NCBI GenBank assembly: GCA_963922205.1
Contig: CAWUHX010000028.1
Coordinates: 1,302,001 to 1,366,000, forward strand
Origin: Romanomermis culicivorax
Taxonomy: Eukaryota; Nematoda; Enoplea; Mermithida; Mermithidae
Direction: 5' to 3'
DNA: 64,000 nucleotides
Shown here: piece by piece, positions 3,303 through 63,956 of the stretch
Layout of the letters: each line of letters starts with the position of its first letter
Position numbering within the stretch: the stretch's first letter is position 1
Program-made: the position numbers and the translations under genes
The notes under the pieces: generated by a model
Seen by the model: only the letters and a program-made list of their open reading frames with translations
Database searches by the model: none
Told to the model about the DNA's origin: nothing

Positions 3303-4130
3303 ATGTCCAAACTGAAATTCTCCATGGACGATATTTTGAACAAAGATATTAAACCCAAAACGGCAACACTGTGTCCCAAAATAATTGACAATTGTCAAAC
3401 GTACGATTATTTCGAATCTTCATCGTCGGATGAGGACGACATTCGACCGGGATCGTCGAACGATTTTTGCAATAGCAAAACGGGCGAAAAATCGCCAAAT
3501 TCAAATCCCACTTCTTCGACAAACGAAAATTCGTCTTCGGCGGCCAAACCGCCGTTTTCGTACATAGCTTTGATCGCAATGTCCATCCTACAATCGCCCA
3601 GTCACAAATTGACCTTGAGCCAAATTTGTGATTTCATCATCAATCGATTTCCCTACTATAAAGAAAAATTCCCCGCTTGGCAAAATAGTATCCGGCATAA
3701 TTTGTCTTTGAACGATTGTTTCATCAAAATTCCCAGGGAACCGGGTAATCCGGGTAAGGGTAACTATTGGACTCTGGACCCGGCCTGCGCCGACATGTTC
3801 GACAACGGCAGCTTTCTACGCCGTAGGAAACGCTACAAACGCCAAAACATGGGCGGCTGTCACAAAGAATTCTCCGGTCACCACCATCCCTACAGGTCGT
3901 GGGCGCCGACGCCCAATTTTTTGCCTCCGCCTTACATCGCGGAGCCACCGTGTTTCAAAAGTCTAACGCCCATGATAGCGCCGACGCTCTCGAAAAATTT
4001 TCCGTCCAATTTTTTGCCGCCGCCTCTGTCGTCCTATTTACCATCGCCGCAGCACCACTTCGTTTTAGCGCAGCCGCCGCCGCAGCCCCACTTCGTGGGT
4101 CCTGCACCACCGCGAGGACTTAGACCTTGA
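3303..4130 (+). CDS. FoxD/UNC-130-like forkhead transcription factor, single exon
   Basis: 275-residue nuclear DNA-binding protein. The forkhead (winged-helix) domain spans about residues 82-177. It starts with [18 protein letters not shown], has the recognition helix [13 protein letters not shown] at 128-140 and ends in the basic wing [12 protein letters not shown]. The [13 protein letters not shown] stretch and the [12 protein letters not shown] tail are typical of the FoxD class, and [18 protein letters not shown] resembles nematode UNC-130. Residues 6-12 (FSMDDIL) fit the eh1 consensus FxIxxIL used to recruit Groucho/TLE corepressors, so a repressor role is likely. Residues 38-80 are Ser/Asp/Asn-rich; the tail after 185 is rich in Pro, His and Phe and looks disordered. 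An acceptor-like CAG just upstream and in-frame uninterrupted coding support the start. FoxD is favoured over FoxE/FoxL, but the exact subclass needs a tree. Confidence 0.93.
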
Positions 4131-7100
4131 AGGGTGCGCGAAAAAACAATGCCTGTTCGGTGTTTAGAGACTTGGGGCGTTATCTGAAAATTTGGCCAAA
4201 CTTCGAGCAGGTGATTATATTTGTATTGATTGAAACCCGCGTTTATTAGGGGTACATCGGGAATAGATCCACTCTAATCTGCGGCCTATTCGCAGTGTCT
4301 CCTCAAAGAAAAGTTTGACTTTATCTGCCAAAAAGGAGTAACAGACAAGAAAGCAGTTTTCCAACAACAGCGTAGGAATTTAGAACTGGAGGCATAACTC
4401 GTCACACTGGAACCAAGCTTTTCTCAATGGACTGCTGGACGTCCTTCTTGATTATATACTGTTGGACAGGGTGTCTCTGAGTTTGCGAAGTTTGAGTGCT
4501 AAAAGTAAAGTGACCGTGAATTTTAGATTTTCCTCTAATTTTTTCGGGCGACGTTTGGTGGTCTTTCAATTTTTTAATGTAATGGATCTAATTTTCTAGC
4601 CTGGCTATTCCTGAGTTTAAATTCCATGTGAAAAATTGCGTTTTGTACTGGTCTTGGCGTTACGTTGCATAATTCTAGATGTGTGAAGTCTGTCAGTTTC
4701 CGTAAGTTGTCAAAAAATCTTGAGAACATATTCCTTTTAGAATCATGTGTAAATAAGGCTTGAAGAGAGTTCATGGTTATAGATAATAATGTACTGCACA
4801 AAAATTTCAAATTTAATTATGTGATTTTTAGAAATAACTTCCCTTTCGATGTACTCAGTTCCGTTTTTCTATCGAGTTTTTAACCCTCCATTTGCGGCTG
4901 AACACATGTACTAGTTAACATGATAGTTTTTATGCAACTTCGCATAGCGCTTTCTCATTCTCCTCTATATCATATTTATTTTTTTCTGTTTTCATATCAC
5001 GGATCTTTAGACTTTTTGTTACCCTATTACATTATTGTTTTATGTATTTGTGTATAGGAAAATAATATAGTAAACGATTTTTTCTTCACTTTATGTAGCC
5101 TATCGTCGACAGGTTCAATTTATAAACTTTTCTTTATTCTATTTACTAGGGAAACAATTTTTTGTTCCCCTTTCTCAATATTTTGGGTAAACATTATTAT
5201 AGAAATGTGCCCCGGATATTGAGTCCGGATCGAAATTGTGATTATAAAAATGTCCAATCGAATCACGTTACTTTCGTAGAGAGAAGGTCGTCTTACTGTA
5301 GGCATACTGTAAAACTAGATTGTGCATCATTAATTATGCAATAAAACTGACTAGGTATCTAATGCGTGTACGAAGTACCAGTTTTTGTATGTTGTGCTAC
5401 CAAAAAGCTACTGCTGCTTTTTCTCACGCCTCATTTGCATAAAAATTATGAATAATTAAGCAATTGCGAGTTTCGCGGGCAAATTATCCATTAAAGTTTC
5501 CAAAAAAGTTTTAATGTGCCCAAGAAGCCGCAAATTATGCAAATTGTCTACAGTAAACTTCGTACGTACACACACACGCACCATATAATTAAACAAATCG
5601 CTCCGATTTGGAGCAACACACTACAGAAACCGGTACAAATGGCCTTTTACTGTAGTATTTGTGTTTGTATTATGGACTAATATATTTTCGTAGGGTTGTG
5701 GATAAGTTATTTCGGCTGACGGAATTTCTGTCACATAACATCAACCATTTCGGTTGATTTTTCGATGCCTCAGGCTTGAATTTTCGCCCGCCGCGTCCCC
5801 GAACGACACTTTTTCCTATACGAAAATGTTTATTTAAGATGCTTCGGTGTTATTCCAACCAAAAAAAAATTTTCCTATACAACCACATCATTTTTGCGCT
5901 ATTTTGAGAGGAAAAATAGGAAAAGAGTGATCAAAAGTTCAAAGTTTTCATTTCAGTAATGAATTTTGGAAACGTCGATACTCGTCAGGCACTGTTGAGA
6001 AATTCGAACATTTTTCATTGTATGATATGTTGTGCGATGAGTTTCAGGTGTTTCACTTGGGATTTTGTTCGAGACCACGTATCGGCATGTCTATATCTTT
6101 TACTGATATCTTATCAAGAAGTATGCATAATGCAAATATATCCAGAAATGCTGTATTTCGGTAAATATTGAGTGTTTGAATTTTCTTTGTCACATATCAG
6201 GAAACTAACCAATCAAGTTTATGCTCAAGAGATCCTGATTCAGATGCCTTTCTAGACCAAAATGTATTAGGTTTAGGTTTTATCGACATCTATGATAGGT
6301 TTTATCGACATCTATTCGACGAAATCATTCAAAATGGGGAATTATAGTGGGTAAAAATTGTTAATCATCAAAATTCTTTACATCCTGATCAGAAAGTAGA
6401 TTTCAGGTGATCTATCATCTATAGAAATGAGAGAAAACTGGACTATGTAAGTCATAAAGGGTTTATACATATTTCAAAAGTAGAATATGATTTGAAAAAT
6501 CCCAAACAAATAGAATAATGTGGCTAACGTTAACAGTATAGGTCATTCATACGAAAATTCAGCTAGAAAGGACGAAGAGAATTGAGCGAATTCTGAAATT
6601 CTCACAATTTTCTGATAGACTCATTTTCTGAAACATCAACATGAGATCGGTCAGTTCGAGGTTATCCATTTCATAATTATAAATTACGACCCAAACTATA
6701 AGGTACATTATGCTTAGAAATGTGCGAATGTGCATAATTTTGCTGCAAAAGTTGTTGAAAAAAATCACGGTTCTCCAAAAAATTCGTGCAGACGTCGTTT
6801 TTAGTGCACACTTCAAAGAAAATTATACTAAGAATATAAAAAGAACTTTTGTTAAAAGTAATTTGTTAGTTTTATTATATTTGAAATATTATCATAATAG
6901 GTCGTTCTTCTTTCTCGAGCTGAAGAAGCATTCTAGTACCCTCAGCAACTGCTGCTCTTAAAATATGCAAATTAGTTTGTATTATATATGCGCACACTAA
7001 ACTATTTGTCATGTTATGTATAGACCGACACCAACCAAAAACTTTTATTTACATAATATAACACATACAAGCGTCACAAACTTTTGTTGGGTGATATGTT

Positions 7101-10100
7101 TCTCTCTCCCCTCTCTCTTTCATCCTACGAAGAAAAACTTCTCAAAGAAGCTAATTAATTATAATAGCTGAAGGAACTTTTTCCTCCGCGGACTTTTCTC
7201 TCTTTGCCTCAAAATATGAATTTTTTGTTGTTTTTTACTAGCAAAAGAGCAACTAAAATAACAGCGTACCATTGAAATTTTTATGATGAACAACAAATTT
7301 TCATTGAGTGGAAGAATAATAATCTACATGTCCATCTATTCTCTTTTCTTGGCAAAAGTTTTTTCACCGGATTATGGTGCCGTAACGGCTATAATGAAAA
7401 ATTGAGCATATTCTCCAGGAGCCGGAATACGGTATATGAACGACATTCAAAAAATCGAGGACAAGTTTTGAGAGAGAATGTTTATAAAACTGAATAGAAC
7501 AACGGGATCATTATGTTCGAATTGCATATAAACAAATTTGCGAACCATTGATCATCCCATATCTATGATTAGTGCTCATGAAGTGAGATTATTTCAAACT
7601 ACAAATGGGCAAAAAATTTTGCTCCGATTTTGCTTGTTTTTGTTTTGATGGGGCGCACTGAAATCCAGAATCAAACGGAAAACGAACTTAAATAAAGATA
7701 AAACAGAATTTAAGAAACTAATATCCACCAAAGCAGCGAATAATCGTGTCAAAAAATGAAATCTCACTGAAAAACTTCGGATTTATTTTTCTGACAGAAT
7801 GAAAAATTGTTCAAAGTTTTGTCTTCGCACGTACATATCTCGTGAACGGTGGGGCTTACTCTCGATTATTCTATCATTTGATCCAGGGCTGCTCAAATTT
7901 TATGTCACAGAATTTGACGATGAATAATCACAAAAATGCAATAAGAAATCTAATTCAAGGGTTTTGCGAGTCGCTCTGCGGACTTGCGGTGCAAGCTTGC
8001 ATAAACATCTCTGTATTTGCAACGCCGAAACTCGCCGGAGAATAAAAAAATGAAATGTAGAGATTCACGAGAAAAAATTTTCTCGGTGGGAAAGTCCGGA
8101 GGCCGTATTTTAAAACCTAGCGTGTGCTTAATCTACTCTAGAGAATGTATATATTTGTCCTAGCAGCAGCTAGTTGATATGCTAGATGATGCTACTTTGT
8201 ATATATTAAAATGTAAAACGTATGGGCGTATTGTAACTTAACTCTAGTCCGAAAGGGTTCCCATCGACCAAATCAACCCTGAGAGTTTTCCCGATTCGAA
8301 TTTCGTTTTTTCGAAGAATCCAACTGTGTTAAGAAAGCTTATGTACGGCTCAATGCTCACGGGTTATTCAGGCCGACTGGGCAAGACTTTAGGCTAGACT
8401 TAGAAAATTAGGGTAGGGGTAGAAGAAAAATGCAAGAGGTAAAATTTTCCTTGAAAAACTACAATTTTCGAATAAAAACGATTTCTTGAGCATTATTTGT
8501 CATTCTTAAGAGTTGAGGTATGTATGGGAGAGAATTCAAAAGTTCAGGTATGAGTATTTTGGGCTTCAGGTAGGAGGGTTTACCACCTATTACCACATGT
8601 TATAGTATTTTAGAAATAGGCCTCAGAAAAAAATCCAAGAAAAAATCAAGCAACATCCATGCGTAGTATAAATGAGAAACTAATCGGCCACATTGAGTAA
8701 AAAACTTTGTCATTCCTCTAAAATCAAGATTTTTGTAGAAAAGTATCCCACATGTGTTTTCTTTCCGAATTAAAAAGCTATCAATTTTTTTATAAAATGT
8801 TTTAAAATCGAGAAATAATAAAAACGTTTGTCGTTAAAATCGTCAACATAAAAAGCTTATACTGTAGAATTTCTTACTCAAAAATGGTTAACGGTTGATT
8901 TAGTATAACGTAAACTCCTAGTTCTTCTTCATAAACTTCTAGTCTTATGTGATTGGAAATTCAGCAGAAAATCGCGCTTTCCATTTTATTTTTCAAAAGT
9001 GTTAATGAAAAACAGACCATAGGTGTTCTCTATGGCAAAAAAATCGTTGCCGACGCTGTTGTGTTCAAAACCCGCTGGATTTAGCATGGTGCACTTCTAA
9101 TCAGTCACATACTCAATGCTACTAATTCGAAATAAAAAAAACAACCGGTCTGTTAATGCACTGTGCGTCAGACAATAACCGATCATTACAGATAAAAAAC
9201 AAAATAAAATACAAATTTCCACAGAACATCGAAATCATTTTTAAACATGCACAACATTAACTACAATTGACCAAACGCAAACATAAAGTGGCGTTTCATA
9301 CAGCAAATTTTGAATTTTTATCTCATCAAAGATTCATTTAATAGAAAGCTGATTGTTCGAGATCACATAGTTCCATTAAGGACCCTATTATCATTGAGGA
9401 ATAGTTTGGAAATTTGAATCTGAATGACCATGGACTAGCATAATTTGTAATTTAATTAATAGCAGTGTACACCAGAAAACACAAAATTCTACTTGAGTGA
9501 AGAACTACAACATGCATCTAAGGAATAAATCACAAAATATCGCAGTGTCTGGCGGAAGATCATCTCAAAGAGGCATTATATTGGACAATTAGTGAGCATT
9601 AAAAAATAGTGTAGACCATTATTAACACGGACAAACTTTTACGATTTCATAAATTTTCGCTCTATTTTTTGCAGCGTGCACGGAGCGGTATAAAACATAT
9701 TCGAGGGTAAAATTTTATATTATTTTTAGCTTATCAAAAGGCATATATTTTTGTCGATAAGCTTCATAAACGTATGTAATCAAACAATGTTATTTCTACA
9801 GCTTAGTTGATGCATAAAAGTACATACTACAGAAATTTACAGTAAGCCGCAGCTGTCTGGACTTTTTCTCGAAAGTAAAGTTGACGGCATATTCGGAACG
9901 CGAAACAAAAGACACTTTTTTGTATCTTCTGTTACCGACACCAAGACACAGGAAGCAAAACTTTTCTTCTTTTTGTTTATGAATGAGTGTCAGTTGTTCC
10001 GTTCGCAGATTCTATAGAGGAGACAGAGAAAACGCAAGCTGCTCTTTTTCACAAATAATAAGACAAAACTTGAGCATAAATCAAAAAATATATCGACGCC

Positions 10101-57489: not shown

Positions 57490-58740
57490 GCCCGTATAGG
57501 TCATATGGTTAAGGATACCCCTATCTTTTGTGTATGACCTATAATTTGTCATTTTTGGTCGATTTATAGGTCATATGGTAAGCATATACGGTCGATTTTT
57601 CGTCGATTTATAGGTCATACGGTTAAGCATACAGGTTCTAGAGTTACCGTAATAGTGGAATTACGGTAATTTTCGATTATGGTAATAGTAGAATTAGGGT
57701 AATAGGTGTGTTACTGTAGGTGGAAAAGGAAAATCGATGACGAACGGAAAATGGAAAAAGGAGACTAAAATGAACAAAAAATGGAAAAGAAATAAAAAGA
57801 GATCTTGTATAAAAATGGCTTCCCCTCTGGGAAGAGGAAGCCTTTCAAAAATTTGCGCCCCTGGACCCCCTTTGTCAAAAGGGCGCCACCTGCAGGCGTA
57901 AATATGTTCGGAGGTCCCATTCCTGAACGATCGTTCAAGTCAATAAATGTCAGAACAGTCAAATTGGTCAGTAATGGTCTGTTTAATGAGTAAAATCTCG
58001 AGAGAGTCAATACGCGATGAAACATTATCCATACTGGTGCATGCGTATAAAGTTTGATTGACTGCCAAAAATGACCAAGAAGGTCTTTTATAAAAAATGA
58101 CCAGAGCGAGCTGACCATAAAAAGCATGTAGACAAATAAGGCCTTTTATAGAAAATGACCAGAACGAGCTGGTCGTAAAAAGCGTGTAGAAAATTTGGAG
58201 AGTTGAGGTACGGTTATGCATACAGGTTCAGGAGTTACCGTAATAGCGGAATTATGGTAATTTTCGATTATGGTAATAATAGAATTAGGGTAATAGATGT
58301 GTTACTGTAGGTGGAAAAGGAAAATCGATGATGAACGGAAAATGGAAAAAGGAAAACTAAAATAAACAAAAAATGAAACAGAAATAAAAAGAGATCGTGT
58401 GTAAAAACGGCTTCCCCCGTGGGCAGAGGAAGCCTTTCAAAAATTTGCGCCCTCGGAGCCCCTTTCACAAAAGGGCGCCACCTGCAGGTGTAAATATGTT
58501 TGGAGGTCCCGTTCCTGAACGATCCTTCAAGTCAATCTCAAACGGTCAAATTGGTCAGTAATGGTCTGTTTAATGAGAAAAATCTCAAGAGAGTCAATAC
58601 GCGATGAAACATTATCTTTACGGGTGCATGCGTATAAGGTTTGATTGACTGCCAAAAATGATCAAGAAGGTCTTTTATAAAAAATGACCAAAACAAAATG
58701 GTTGTAAAAAGCATGTAGAAAAATTGGAGAGTTGAAAAAA
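57490..58740. repeat. Tandem duplication of about 0.55 kb, next to the Polinton polymerase end
   Basis: Copy 1 (about 57620-58209) and copy 2 (about 58211-58738) are near-identical in sequence order: CATACAGGTTC, AGTTACCGTAATAG, TTTTCGATTATGGTAATA, GTTACTGTAGGTGGAAAAGG, AAGGGCGCCACCTGCAGG, AACATTATC and TGTAGAAAATTTGGAGAG. Copy 1 has an extra internal repeat of about 62 bp (GGCCTTTTATAGAAAATGAC). Left of copy 1, TTATAGGTCATATGGT repeats three times (57497-57622). No coding capacity. Its relation to the Polinton terminus is unknown. Confidence 0.75.
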
Positions 58741-58802: not shown

Positions 58803-59901
58803 TCATTTAGTCCAACCATAAGGAAATGTAAAAAAATTACATTTCAAAATACGTTTATCATATACTACACGAAATTTTTTCAAAGTTTTATGAGTAACAA
58901 CTTTACAATCTTGCTGACGCTCTATACGGAGACTATGTACATTTACTTCTTCTTTTCCATTGTTTTTTACAAAAGCAAAAACCATTCGACGAAGCGAATA
59001 AAAATTAACTTTTTTCATAGTATCTGATGACAAAGTGATACCTCGGACTTTGATTACGTGATGGTATTGGTCTGTAGATGGACTGTACAACCTGTAAGTG
59101 TAATTTTTAGGACCTCCACTGATGAATTCGGTAATGTAAGATCCGGAACCATATTCACGTAACTCGTCAGTCATTTCACCAAGGCACCAACCAGTAGGTA
59201 CTTGATATTGTTGTTTGTCAACTGTTGACAGGTAAATAATACTATCTGTGTCAAAATACAATACTTGACTTTTTAATCGCTCATTGTAAGAATATAACTT
59301 TAGTCGAGCTTGAGCCCTTGTATAAGCTGCAATAACAGCGTTAGTATTTCCCATGACTTCCGCAAAATCATCATGTTGACAATATGTTGTTGACACCAAT
59401 TGTTTATTAATTAGTCTAACATTCTTAATAATGTTGGCCGCATTCATCACAAGTTCAAAATATTCTTTGGGTGCATTGTGGATAACAGTTTTATCCATAT
59501 TGCTTCCTTGACCAAACTAAAAAACATAAAAATAATTAAATAAAATACAAAAAATTATGCAAAGTTACTTTTCCCCAGAAAGAATTTAGCATTAATTTTG
59601 CCAAAGCCCTCTTTCCAGGATTTTTTAAAATTTTCGAAGAATCCAATAAAATATTCTCACGATTGTAGACCTCCATTTTGCATTCACGTTTTTGCTCAGC
59701 TGTCTGAGCTTTAGCAGGGTAGCCTTCACTCTTCTATAAAAATTACAATCAAATTCTGCCACATTTACATAATATAAAACTTACTAGTTTCATTTTCATA
59801 AAGGTATTGACGTATTGAGTAAATAAACCACCAGTGGGGTTTTTGGTTGGATGATATTGCTCAATATTATCATAATGCCAAACCTCAAAAATCTTGAGGA
59901 T
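58803..59901 (-). CDS. Polinton/Maverick family B DNA polymerase, C-terminal part with two introns
   Basis: Exons (minus) 59901-59785, 59733-59569 and 59516-58803, separated by phase-0 GT-AG introns of 51 and 52 nt. Exon 1 gives ILKIFEVWHYDNIEQYHP and GGLFTQYVNTFMKMK. Exon 2 gives NPGKRALAKLMLNSFWGK, motif B of the palm. Exon 3 opens FGQGSN and holds motif C, YFDTDSIIYL, with the catalytic Asp pair, and ends KCNFFTFPYGWTK. Motif A, the exonuclease and the N-terminal parts are absent: the acceptor of exon 1 is followed upstream by a long G run and unrelated DNA, so the gene is cut or its earlier exons have been moved. The polymerase copies the element by protein priming. Other Polinton genes on the same strand support the assignment. 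Most likely a remnant. Confidence 0.85.
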
Positions 59902-60828: not shown

Positions 60829-61347
60829 TCAACTTTCAAAACTGACAAGTAACTCTTTGAAGTTCTTCTGCAGTTCACCCTAGGTCTTGGCACCTGTGAT
60901 AATAATTTTACCTTTGTGAAAAATCAATGCACATAAGCCCTGCTTGTTAATTGTATATTTCAGTGCAGGAAATAATTCAGGAGAATAATCACACTGACCC
61001 CTATGAGTGTTATAGAATTCCTCAACATTGATACAGTGATCTAGGGCATATGACCCAACAACATTGCACATTCTAAATTTTCTGGGTCTTGGTCGATAGC
61101 CGAGTTTGAGCAGTATTTCTGCAGCATAATCTATACTTTTCACAGCCTGCTGAGTTGCCTTAATGCCCACACATATGAGCTTGCCATTTTCATACAATAG
61201 TAGACAACATTTTGGATCATTAAGATGCCAAATTAGCGACCGAAATTTTCCCATTGTCAGTTTAGAGCCATCCAATTTTTTAGCAAGTAAGTCTAAATTG
61301 AGTCAACAGCCAAGTTCAGCTGTGACTGTAATGTTTTGTACTTGCAT
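60829..61347 (-). pseudogene. TATA-binding-protein (TBP) homologue carried by the Polinton, two nonsense codons
   Basis: Reading from ATG 61347 (2 nt after the penton stop) to TGA 60829-60831 gives 172 codon positions, close to the TBP core of about 180. Repeat 1: MQVQNITVTAELGC, then LIWHLNDPKCCLLLYENGK. Repeat 2: FRMCNVVGSYALDHCINVEE, YSPELFPALKYTI, then CALIFHKGKIIITGAK. These match TBP VQNIVSTVNLGC, NPKTTALIFSSGK, YEPELFPGLIYRM and LIFVSGKVVLTGAK without gaps. Of the four DNA-intercalating Phe positions, three are Phe (GKF, ELFP, LIF) and one is Tyr (LLLYENGK). Codon 15 is TGA where TBP has the Lys of GCKL, and TAG at 60880-60882 falls in the last helix (RxEIYxAF), after which the frame continues GELQKNFKELLVSF. 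Both stops are one transition from Arg or Gln codons. Readthrough is possible but decay is likelier. The expected role is promoter recognition. This is not a host TBP with introns; the tight spacing marks it as a viral-type gene. Confidence 0.82.
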
Positions 61348-61349
61348 TT

Positions 61350-62132
61350 TTAGAATAAACTTCGCTTACTAAAGTGTAACTTCACAATTGTTTTACCAGT
61401 GACAAATTTTATAGGTTTGTCTTGATCTGTTCTAATTGAAATTTCGATAGAATCGATATCTTTTACCAGTACAGGCAAGTAGTGAGGAGCTATATATATC
61501 TTATCTATAATGTCACCAAAAGCTCCCTCTATATTAACAATACGGAGGAGGGGGGCTAAAATATCACCAGCAATCTGTTGTTCAATGATGTTACAATAAA
61601 CATACATAGTTTCGAGACCAGCCTTCATATCAGCAGGGTGTGCAGCAGCAATTTTCAATTTTTCAGATGAAGTTGTTTCTAGTTGTGATTTTTCAAAGCC
61701 CAACAGGTAGAGTAAAGGATCACTTAATTTTATGCTCTTGATTCTAGTCAGGTTCACTTTCAGGACAACTGCTCTGGCTAATCTCCTGCATGAAAATTCG
61801 ATAAACTCATTATATGGAACTTTTTCCTGTTCACTCAACAACCTGATGGATTGTTGAATAGCTTCAATTAAATCTATTATAGATTCATACCTTGTAGAAG
61901 GTACTTTTAGTAATTGCCTAGTATTGGTCTGAAGATCATAAAATTTTATTACACTATCACTAGGTGTTACATTGAACCAGGTATTTGGGTAGATGAATTC
62001 ACAAAGTGCACATTCCCATTCACCTTGCAAAATCAATCTATGAGGCAACCTGATACTAAAATTTGAAGCCGAGTTACTCGGATCGCTCTGAGCATTGCTC
62101 GGTAATGTTACATAAAACTGTGAAAAATCCAT
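61350..62132 (-). CDS. Polinton penton/minor capsid-like protein
   Basis: Intact 260-residue frame, ATG 62132, TAA at 61350-61352. The start MDFSQFYVTLPSNAQSDP, the ASNFSIRLPHRLILQGEWEC segment and FIYPNTWFNV are the conserved N-terminal part of the second capsid protein of animal Polintons and adintoviruses: strand-rich, ending near a TWFN turn. The remainder alternates beta-type hydrophobic segments and ends LPVLVKDIDSIEISIRTDQD and KTIVKLHFSKRSLF. It would form the vertices of the capsid together with the major capsid protein. It lies 34 nt after the protease and 2 nt before the TBP-like start. It is the only complete virion gene here. Penton assignment follows gene order and the N-terminal motif; the fold was not tested. 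Confidence 0.78.
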   Translation of the reverse strand: MDFSQFYVTLPSNAQSDPSNSASNFSIRLPHRLILQGEWECALCEFIYPNTWFNVTPSDSVIKFYDLQTNTRQLLKVPSTRYESIIDLIEAIQQSIRLLSEQEKVPYNEFIEFSCRRLARAVVLKVNLTRIKSIKLSDPLLYLLGFEKSQLETTSSEKLKIAAAHPADMKAGLETMYVYCNIIEQQIAGDILAPLLRIVNIEGAFGDIIDKIYIAPHYLPVLVKDIDSIEISIRTDQDKPIKFVTGKTIVKLHFSKRSLF

Positions 62133-62166: not shown

Positions 62167-62662
62167 TTATATTCTGTTGAGCTGTTCAAATAAAAATGCA
62201 TCATCATATATGGGAGTATTTGTTCTAAAGAGACTGTTGATGAAGCCAGTAATGAATTCATCAGCATAGCTTTGTTCCAAACTAGCAGCAATATCCCTCA
62301 TTCTTATACCTCTGACTATCCACATGAGAAAGTATACACATAACTGACCACATGTAGCAGTCAGGTACATTTGAACACATTTGGTATTCCACGTGTAAGA
62401 AGTAGATATAGTCTTGATGTAATTCCTAAGCTGTTGAGGTGGTTCCAGGCCGTAACTGTCAAAATAACAACATGCATGTTTTTTTATCAACAAACAGAGC
62501 TACCCAGTGTGAACCAGGTTCATCCTGCTTGTCCAGATTTACAACCAATGCTGCGGGTACAGTGTCAAGAGGTGGTAAACAGTCTATAGGAAATACCTCA
62601 TTGAAGATTTGCCTGAGAGCTTGATCTCTATTGATCAAGATGTAGATTTCAGAGGTATTCAT
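62167..62662 (-). pseudogene. Adenain-like capsid-maturation cysteine protease, frameshifted
   Basis: The ATG at 62660-62662 overlaps the capsid stop (ATGA). The first frame runs to a TGA near 62459 and the second from about 62493 to 62167; the change of frame falls at a run of seven A (minus strand, about 62480-62486). Family C5 landmarks are all present: the His of DEPGSHWVALFV, the acidic residue of CYFDSYGLEP, and the Gln and nucleophile Cys of CVQMYLTATCGQLCVYF. The final part is IYDDAFLFEQLNRI. It would cleave capsid precursors during maturation. A single-base indel in a homopolymer is a common decay event; programmed frameshifting or a sequencing error cannot be excluded. Confidence 0.82.
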
Positions 62663-63956
62663 GCAGTATAATCATTAAAGACGTGTCTATTTTTATCGAT
62701 CATAATCAAATTGTCAAATTCTGCATAAACAATAACTTCTATACCTGCATCAGGTATCCTATCCGCAAATGTCAATTCTATACTTGTGGAACCATCTCTA
62801 ATCAAGTCTCAATGTCCACTATCATCTTCATCAGGTGTAAAATCGAAGGCAAAGTAGCACTGTCCATTTTTAAAATTAAGCCTGCTAATGCCATTCACTT
62901 TGTTATCTTTAGCCATGTCTAGAGTTTCAAAGAGCTGATCATATGCTCGAATATATTTGTTGTTGGCAAAATCAAGTCTTAGTGGAGTCGCTGGAAAAGC
63001 TTGACCACCAGAGACAACATTGACTTCACTTATACTGTAACATTTAAAATTGAATGGAGATTTTTTTATTTCTCCACGATATGCATCCGCATCGACGCAT
63101 GCTATAATCATCCTACGTGGCAACTGACCAGTGAATAGAGTATTCAGAGGTATTGCGTTGTACTAGCAATATGAAGATTCACCATTTGGACTCGTCTAAT
63201 TGGGTACTTGACTGGTGTCTTTAACATTGCTTTTTCCAGAGCCAATCCAACACTGTCGAGAACTTCAACTTTCCTGATGAAGAGTTTCATCTGGGAAACT
63301 TCCAGTTTTGCATTTTCTGCATCACCAGCTGGACACTGTAATACAAATGGATTACTATTGCGAATCAATTCCAGTTTGAGCTCAGTATTGCTGAGTAAAT
63401 ATCCATCTTGCATTAGAAGATCAATATGAAGAGGAGCTGTTATTTCAACCATTTGACCATTTTCAAAGTACTTTACTCTGTCTTTAAAACCCTGGCAATC
63501 AGCAGTATCTATTTTGAGGCCAGCGTCCATAGTATACAAAGAAGACTGTAAGTGACTATTTTTAGCATCAAAACCAAAATTTAAATCAGTTTCAAAGAAT
63601 GCTCTGTAGGCATATTTATCCCTACTATCATGAATGAGACGACCATTCAGGAAGAGCTTCACTTGTCTGAAAAATGCTTTACCAATCAGATTGATAGGTG
63701 CAATTACTGGTGCAGCTCCACCAGCAGGAACTGTGTAAGTAATTTTCAATGTCATGTACAAATAATTTTTGCTAAGCTGAATCATGTGAGGATCTGGGGG
63801 TATACAAAATTCGTATGGACCATCATTAGTGATAGGATTTATCGGGTTAACTTCATCCCAGTAGCCTCGTTTAATTACTACTTGTGTGGGAGGAACAGTG
63901 AAAAAGTCCAATTCAGATTTCGTACTAATACTAGAAATTGTATCAATTAGAGCCAT
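62659..63956 (-). pseudogene. Polinton major capsid protein (double jelly-roll), with frameshift and in-frame stop
   Basis: The start is placed at ATG 63956 (MALIDTISSISTKSELDFF); an ATG 30 nt upstream is also open. Recognisable core: SYFTVPP-type start (DFFTVPPTQVVIKRGYWDE), YEFCIPPDPHMIQLSKNYLY, FFRQVKLFLNGRLIHDSRDK, then ELKLELIRNSNPFVLQC and RKVEVLDSVGLALEKAM. The class is the one often annotated as F54H12.2-like in animal genomes. The first frame ends at about 63144. The protein continues in another frame from 63123 (LPRRMIIACVDADAYRGEIK), stops at TGA 62809, and the same frame then carries the typical C-terminus (EVIVYAEFDNLIMIDKNRHV) to 62659. So it has one frameshift and one nonsense codon. 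It forms the icosahedral shell. The ATPase and integrase expected of a Polinton must lie right of 64000 if present. Confidence 0.87.

Follow-up and report, generated by a model that had tools for sequence, protein, structure and literature searches.

We examined a window of 64,000 nucleotides (the whole stretch of DNA analysed here, in contig C28 of the Romanomermis culicivorax assembly) and found the remains of a Polinton towards its end, with a gene for a TATA-binding protein (TBP) directly following a penton-like gene. The recognised features are given below; L001 is a related deep-sea contig, and A and A2 are two of the Polinton lineages of this genome.

58803..59733, minus strand: C-terminal pieces of the DNA polymerase (PolB), matched at 40-53% by Polinton loci elsewhere in the genome
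60563..60742, minus strand: gene for a small CxxC protein downstream of TBP, as in lineages A and A2
60829..61347, minus strand: TBP gene of the Polinton, a pseudogene here (PF00352, AlphaFold2, Foldseek)
60880..60882, minus strand: second in-frame stop (TAG), inside the TBP frame
61303..61305, minus strand: first in-frame stop (TGA), inside the TBP frame
61350..62132, minus strand: gene for a penton-like protein (minor capsid), an open frame of 260 aa that tblastn aligns with the penton-like frame of L001
62164..62171, minus strand: TATAAAAG box, 39 nt upstream of the penton ATG, the sole TATAAAAG kept in the window
62167..62671, minus strand: adenovirus-type protease, broken, in two frames, match to the L001 protease frame
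62659..63956, minus strand: double jelly-roll (DJR) major capsid protein (MCP), in three pieces (one frameshift, one stop), recognised by homologues

The window Polinton is decayed, with MCP, protease and PolB broken alongside TBP. A search with the MCP gave 140 homologues at E <= 0.001, the best at 72% identity and some carrying PF21738, while no Pfam family was found for the penton-like protein and the PolB pieces matched none of the Pfam PolB models. The element extends past the end of the window, the MCP promoter lies at or past that end, and no integrase was found within the window; copies elsewhere in the genome were read as 10-kb stretches. The PolB pieces adjoin a direct repeat of about 590 bp (57618-58735, 87-90% alike), probably a later insertion. 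Positions 3303-4130 hold an open frame which we take to resemble a host forkhead (FoxD-type) transcription factor.

The open middle piece of the TBP frame (60883-61302, 140 aa) matched PF00352 at E 6.9e-29 (100 bits, cut-off 22.9), and the profile covers it as two stretches above the curated cut-off, corresponding to the two TBP lobes. At E <= 1 the PDB search listed 36 distinct sequences, of which all but one were TBPs or TBP fusions (best E 6e-24). AlphaFold2 predicted the saddle fold for this piece (pLDDT 88.9), and all 44 Foldseek matches of the model below E 0.001 were TBPs or TBP fusions. An earlier, sequence-only reading had proposed a TBP gene starting 2 nt past the penton stop on the same strand, with three of the four intercalating Phe kept and Tyr at the fourth; the profile, PDB and structure searches agree with the identification, the frames confirm the spacing and the shared strand, which is the minus strand, and the Tyr occupies the yeast F116 position. 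The same reading had overlooked the two in-frame stops. We consider the window copy a pseudogene because TGA and TAG interrupt the frame. The L001 TBP aligned to the window by tblastn over 61344-60847 (166 aligned positions, 33.7% identity, E 7e-28) and crossed both stops in one frame; therefore, the visible damage consists of two stop codons, with no frameshift. The TBP gene of the window is real and part of the Polinton.

We searched the genome (359 Mb) and detected at least 150 matches to PF00352 and at least 151 to the window TBP piece. By hand count, 64 of the 151 listed TBP matches form a single open frame of at least 176 aa without stops, some of them perhaps haplotype duplicates. The listed places were merged into 115 window-type MCP loci and 169 TBP places, the latter without second-lobe PF00352 rows and without a few rows that continue a place already counted. 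A TBP lies within 6 kb of the MCP in 95 of the 115 listed loci, in all 95 downstream and on the same strand, at a median gap of 1,853 bp (IQR 1,839-1,871), while chance adjacency is expected at about 0.006 per locus. Sister copies with the gene at the same position, for which the sequence-only reading had asked, are present in these loci. A listed MCP lies no more than 6 kb from at least 95 of the 169 TBP places. Polintons at more than 100 places in the genome mostly carry their own TBP gene, and a single odd locus is ruled out by the same census. Polinton copies lacking the gene had been named as evidence that would count against the assignment, and this refutation has not come about. The other 20 of the 115 listed loci do speak against it, with no TBP match up to 6 kb away; at least five of them (on C16, C35, C87, C125 and C235, checked by hand) have a match 7-16 kb away on the downstream side.

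For a second MCP family, with frames of 475 aa and 17 listed loci, there was no TBP match within 10 kb. This second Polinton family, to which L033 belongs, has many listed equal-score copies in the same genome, with no TBP match near them. We found no TBP by tblastn at E 0.01 in L033 or in L034, a PolB-type locus with many listed copies. In L034, positions 7970-8692 hold a 241-aa frame with a hydrophobic, signal-like start and no Pfam family over cut-off.

We fetched twenty 10-kb stretches, of which one (L032) is the host TBP locus and the other 19 contain TBP matches. Lineage A, the window type, and lineage A2 together comprise ten loci with the order MCP-protease-penton-TBP-CxxC protein, complete in eight of them (no protease match in L024, neither MCP nor protease in L030), and the penton stop is followed by the TBP ATG after 2-3 nt in eight of the ten, the penton being broken in the other two. 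Lineage B has the order MCP-protease-penton-TBP-chromo-PolB in L016 and L021 and parts of it in L027 and L019; the penton-TBP spacing in L016 is 94 nt. In lineages C and D, TBP lies near PolB or a chromo-like frame, with a weak penton match in L013. The element TBP frames measure 170-195 aa from their ATG with PF00352 as the main match (136-150 bits for the TBPs of L013, L014, L016 and L018). Identity to the window was 93-96% for MCP and 88-97% for TBP in lineage A, 82-86% and 61-70% in A2, and 70-71% (L016, L021) and about 35% (L021) in B; judged by these identities, MCP and TBP diverge in step across lineages. A protein-primed PolB (PF03175 over cut-off) lies beside TBP on C161, C97, C354 and C1, integrase homologues were found in the TBP-bearing loci L019 and L030, and homologues of the protease and packaging ATPase were matched in many Polinton loci of the genome. 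The CxxC protein, in its L015 version, has no Pfam family, and on that ground it was ruled out as a TFIIB. In the lineage A locus L025 (4564-4797) the CxxC protein resembles the A2 version, a similarity that suggests recombination between the two lineages.

Outside this genome, a contig scan with the MCP alignment recovered three contigs, all filed under bacterial MAGs (L001, L002 and L003). L001, from the deep sea (11.6 kb), carries an intact TBP (PF00352 E 3.4e-45, 152 bits) alongside protease, MCP, penton, integrase and ATPase, so that the gene recurs in a Polinton from another source; the window penton and MCP match their L001 counterparts. Its integrase (rve, E 3.6e-7, 30.8 bits) falls just under the cut-off of 32.6, and neither the protease (PF00770, E 7e-4) nor the ATPase (PF04665, E 0.004) reaches its own. 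The L001 TBP has all four intercalating Phe, an AlphaFold2 model at pLDDT 95.1 whose 44 Foldseek matches below E 0.001 were TBPs or TBP fusions, and 39-51% identity to 16 cellular TBPs (alignment A7). No TBP match was found in L002 and L003, which are partial Polintons. Seven metagenomic proteins resemble the L001 TBP (P0123-P0128, 57-68% identical; P0231, 49%), and we infer that Polintons encode them. A word-based protein search with the window TBP piece, viral contig scans that used the TBP, MCP or penton of the window, two MCP alignments or a two-row TBP alignment, and a phage collection search returned nothing useful. A viral contig scan with seven marine-type TBPs gave one contig, L004 (IMGVR_UViG_3300027580_000054), in which a TBP gene (7076-7672, PF00352 E 5.5e-27) lies beside phage-type terminase and portal genes; this contig is probably an archaeal tailed virus.

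The phylogenetic tree comprised 24 element TBPs (window, five of A, five of A2, three of B, one each of C and D, eight marine) and 26 cellular TBPs including that of the host. One branch (100/99) parts the 24 element TBPs from the 26 cellular ones, in an unrooted tree that covers neither archaea nor viruses other than these elements and for which long branches were flagged. The host TBP (contig C95) is split by introns and groups with those of the nematodes Ditylenchus and Diploscapter (99/98). The sequence-only reading had named as one possible refutation a recent host TBP retrocopy found at this locus alone, which would here have landed beside a dead Polinton. The window copy is indeed intronless and broken, but it is only 33-38% identical to cellular TBPs, sits on a branch distinct from the host TBP, has an intact homologue in L001 and shares its place with the TBPs of 95 of the 115 listed MCP loci; tree separation and the MCP-TBP census together refute a recent retrocopy, and we give the idea next to no credence. 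A single capture of TBP by Polintons is likely. That several Polinton lineages took up host TBP separately, the gene being a recurrent passenger and not an inherited module, appears rather unlikely to us, even though several observations lean that way. Gene order near TBP varies by lineage, and two 2-residue gaps common to the marine cluster are missing in the window type. In 18 of 26 diagnostic columns the window TBP matches neither group; it agrees with the marine cluster in 6 and with cells in 2. In a smaller tree without P0231, LG+G4 unites the window and marine TBPs (99/97) and a mixture model leaves them apart, their union not being rejected (AU p 0.256). In the smaller tree with P0231, however, the window joins the marine cluster (100/100, nine rows), and once intermediates are included all 24 element TBPs fall on one side of the branch described above.

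The median dN/dS of TBP (Nei-Gojobori) was 0.18 within A (10 pairs), 0.21 within A2 (10 pairs) and 0.14 between A and A2 (25 pairs; dS 2.0, saturated); for the penton, A against A2 gave 0.06 (10 pairs). By these ratios the element TBP is under purifying selection. Residues are given in yeast numbering. The four intercalating Phe positions are aromatic in all element TBPs that reach them except P0128, which has Ser at 190; lineages A and A2 have Tyr at 116. E188 and E186 are TFIIB contacts of TBP; the first is the same in all 24 element TBPs, the second variable. K138 and Y139 lie in the N-lobe patch that binds TFIIA; position 139 is changed in all 24 element TBPs and position 138 in 22, K138 being kept in C and D. 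Three positions that are conserved among 113 cellular rows also differ, namely I194 (95%) and V203 (99%) in every element TBP and T124 (100%) in 22 of the 24. Cellular TBP, TBP2, TBPL1 and TRF2 share the two PF00352 lobes with the element copies, which differ from cellular TBP in being one frame without introns and in having V213I (24/24) and F148Y (A, A2, B and marine). We do not consider TBPL1 a closer model, because the human protein lacks three of the four intercalating Phe. V203T resembles the yeast mutant TBPm3, and TGTAAA occurs upstream of two L001 genes; a literature search on such an altered-specificity (TGTAAA) promoter found nothing, and lineages A, A2 and B have TATAAAAG as their box instead. 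TFIIB (PF00382) had 3 matches in the genome, none amplified, and an element-encoded TFIIB is ruled out at the sensitivity of PF00382, below which a more divergent TFIIB could fall.

TATAAAAG is a canonical TATA box, to which host TBP would bind as well. Across 77.9 kb from 14 A, A2 and B loci that bear TBP, it occurs 59 times in sense and 0 times in antisense, although these loci are related and the 59 boxes are not independent. When one locus per lineage was taken, each of the three gave 5:0, against Markov means of 0.29-0.49, and not one of 300 draws reached that number. Box by box in five A, A2 and B loci, 17 out of 24 TATAAAAG sit 11-63 nt upstream of an ATG with a frame of at least 60 aa, and the remaining 7 have no such ATG within 90 nt. 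The TBP-less L033 and L034 have 0 sense and 1 antisense copies between them, a comparison of two loci that are perhaps one lineage. In the TBP-bearing lineages C and D we found no TATAAAAG in the spans tested, and elsewhere one, on one strand of L031; TATAAATAG or TATAAACAG lies upstream of a few of their frames. In L001, 7 of 25 TATAWA sites are 25-50 nt upstream of an ATG that opens a frame of 70 aa or more, where the random mean is 1.66 and 0 of 300 draws reached seven, and one of these seven falls inside the penton frame.

The window holds a decayed Polinton with TBP after the penton, and we consider it fairly probable that working copies use their TBP together with host TFIIB and Pol II at their own TATA boxes. 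In lineages A and A2, TBP would be translated from the penton transcript. The protein would then bind the TATAAAAG boxes ahead of the element genes, box DNA such as TATAAAAGTT being its expected target, and would recruit host TFIIB and then Pol II, starting element transcription. Promoter recognition by the element TBP is suggested by the TATAAAAG boxes in three TBP-bearing lineages. Recruitment of host TFIIB we infer from an invariant TFIIB-contact residue and from the lack of any amplified TFIIB gene; likewise, the element TBP may escape TFIIA, TAF1, Mot1 and NC2, because the basic/aromatic patch of the N-lobe is mostly gone. The net effect would be a private promoter-recognition factor beyond restraint by the host regulators of TBP. 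Counting against this mechanism are the lack of TATAAAAG in the stretches read of lineages C and D, the listed MCP loci that are TBP-less within 6 kb, the variable E186 and the expected binding of TATAAAAG by host TBP. A wider version, which we offer tentatively, is that an old Polinton lineage possesses half-private transcription, with its own TBP blind to TFIIA, Mot1, NC2 and TAF1 and its own boxes, borrowing TFIIB and Pol II from the host, and that the gene-box pair was inherited while Polintons split into those of nematode-like and those of deep-sea hosts.

Two other functions would account for part of the same data. The element TBP could be a decoy or inhibitor that occupies host TATA boxes or TFIIB unproductively and damps host transcription or defence, the element boxes being served by host TBP; the lost or changed K138 and Y139 would suit such a role, as would the presumed binding of TATAAAAG by host TBP. 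We regard it as improbable, since E188 is kept throughout and TBP travels with TATAAAAG boxes in A, A2 and B, while the two TBP-less loci have no sense boxes. The saddle might instead bend DNA for packaging, replication or integration and have no part in transcription, a role that would suit the intercalating residues, which are kept, and the several altered partner surfaces; it would, however, make the invariant TFIIB-contact residue and the boxes ahead of genes needless, and we find it more improbable still.

The TBP-bearing loci resemble Polintons/Mavericks (adintovirus-like endogenous animal viruses) in their DJR MCP, penton and PolB and in their probable protease, ATPase and integrase; what sets them apart is the TBP gene and, in three of the lineages, TATAAAAG boxes. 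Polintons measure roughly 15-20 kb. The available part of PMC10120064 gives this size as well, and, if the mechanism is true, an element of some 15-20 kb controls its own promoter recognition. A term search found no mention of TATA or TBP in PMC4028283, PMC8097293, PMC10120064, PMC11071296 and PMC11071308, and the open-access literature on TBP or TFIID with Polintons, Mavericks and virophages and on nematode Polintons (the founding adintovirus paper lying outside it) yielded no report of a Polinton TBP, nor did the literature searched yield a Polinton with any general transcription factor. Such a mechanism would bear on the persistence of Polintons as active elements, on the origins of viral TBPs and on TBP function without regulators; the genome offers many intact copies and recognisable boxes, with its TBP-less Polintons as a natural control.

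The sequence-only reading had stated that TBP is known from giant viruses. This holds for some of them, as TBP is present in megavirus and C. parva virus (PMC11464507 and PMC12085832, in the parts available), but not for the Nucleocytoviricota set of PMC10132985, where, according to the accessible part of that paper, TBP occurs in 0% of genomes against 59% of mirusvirus genomes. The part of PMC7221094 at hand describes TBPs of large viruses as retaining the DNA contacts and losing the regulator-binding signature of the N-lobe, and in this the element TBPs are like those of mirusviruses, megavirus, C. parva virus and poxviruses. From the same part, TBP-bearing large viruses nearly always have a TFIIB-like gene too, poxviruses excepted, whereas here there is no amplified PF00382 and the carrier is a small integrating Polinton. 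KSHV ORF24, a herpesvirus TBP mimic thought to guide host Pol II to viral promoters (PMC12529657, in the part available), is alike as a viral TBP-fold protein acting with host Pol II, the arrangement proposed for the element TBP; by its description there it is set apart by an extra DNA-binding C-terminal domain, whereas the element frames are mainly PF00352.

Finally, we observed in L001 a 16-bp palindrome, GAGTGTCNNGACACTC, in seven copies (at 1095, 1149, 9712, 10854, 10915, 11489 and 11538), five of them exact and two with one change, where mononucleotide-shuffled sequences gave a mean of 0.4. By eye, five of the seven copies adjoin TATA-like sequence, and the palindromes are possible operators of the marine Polinton.
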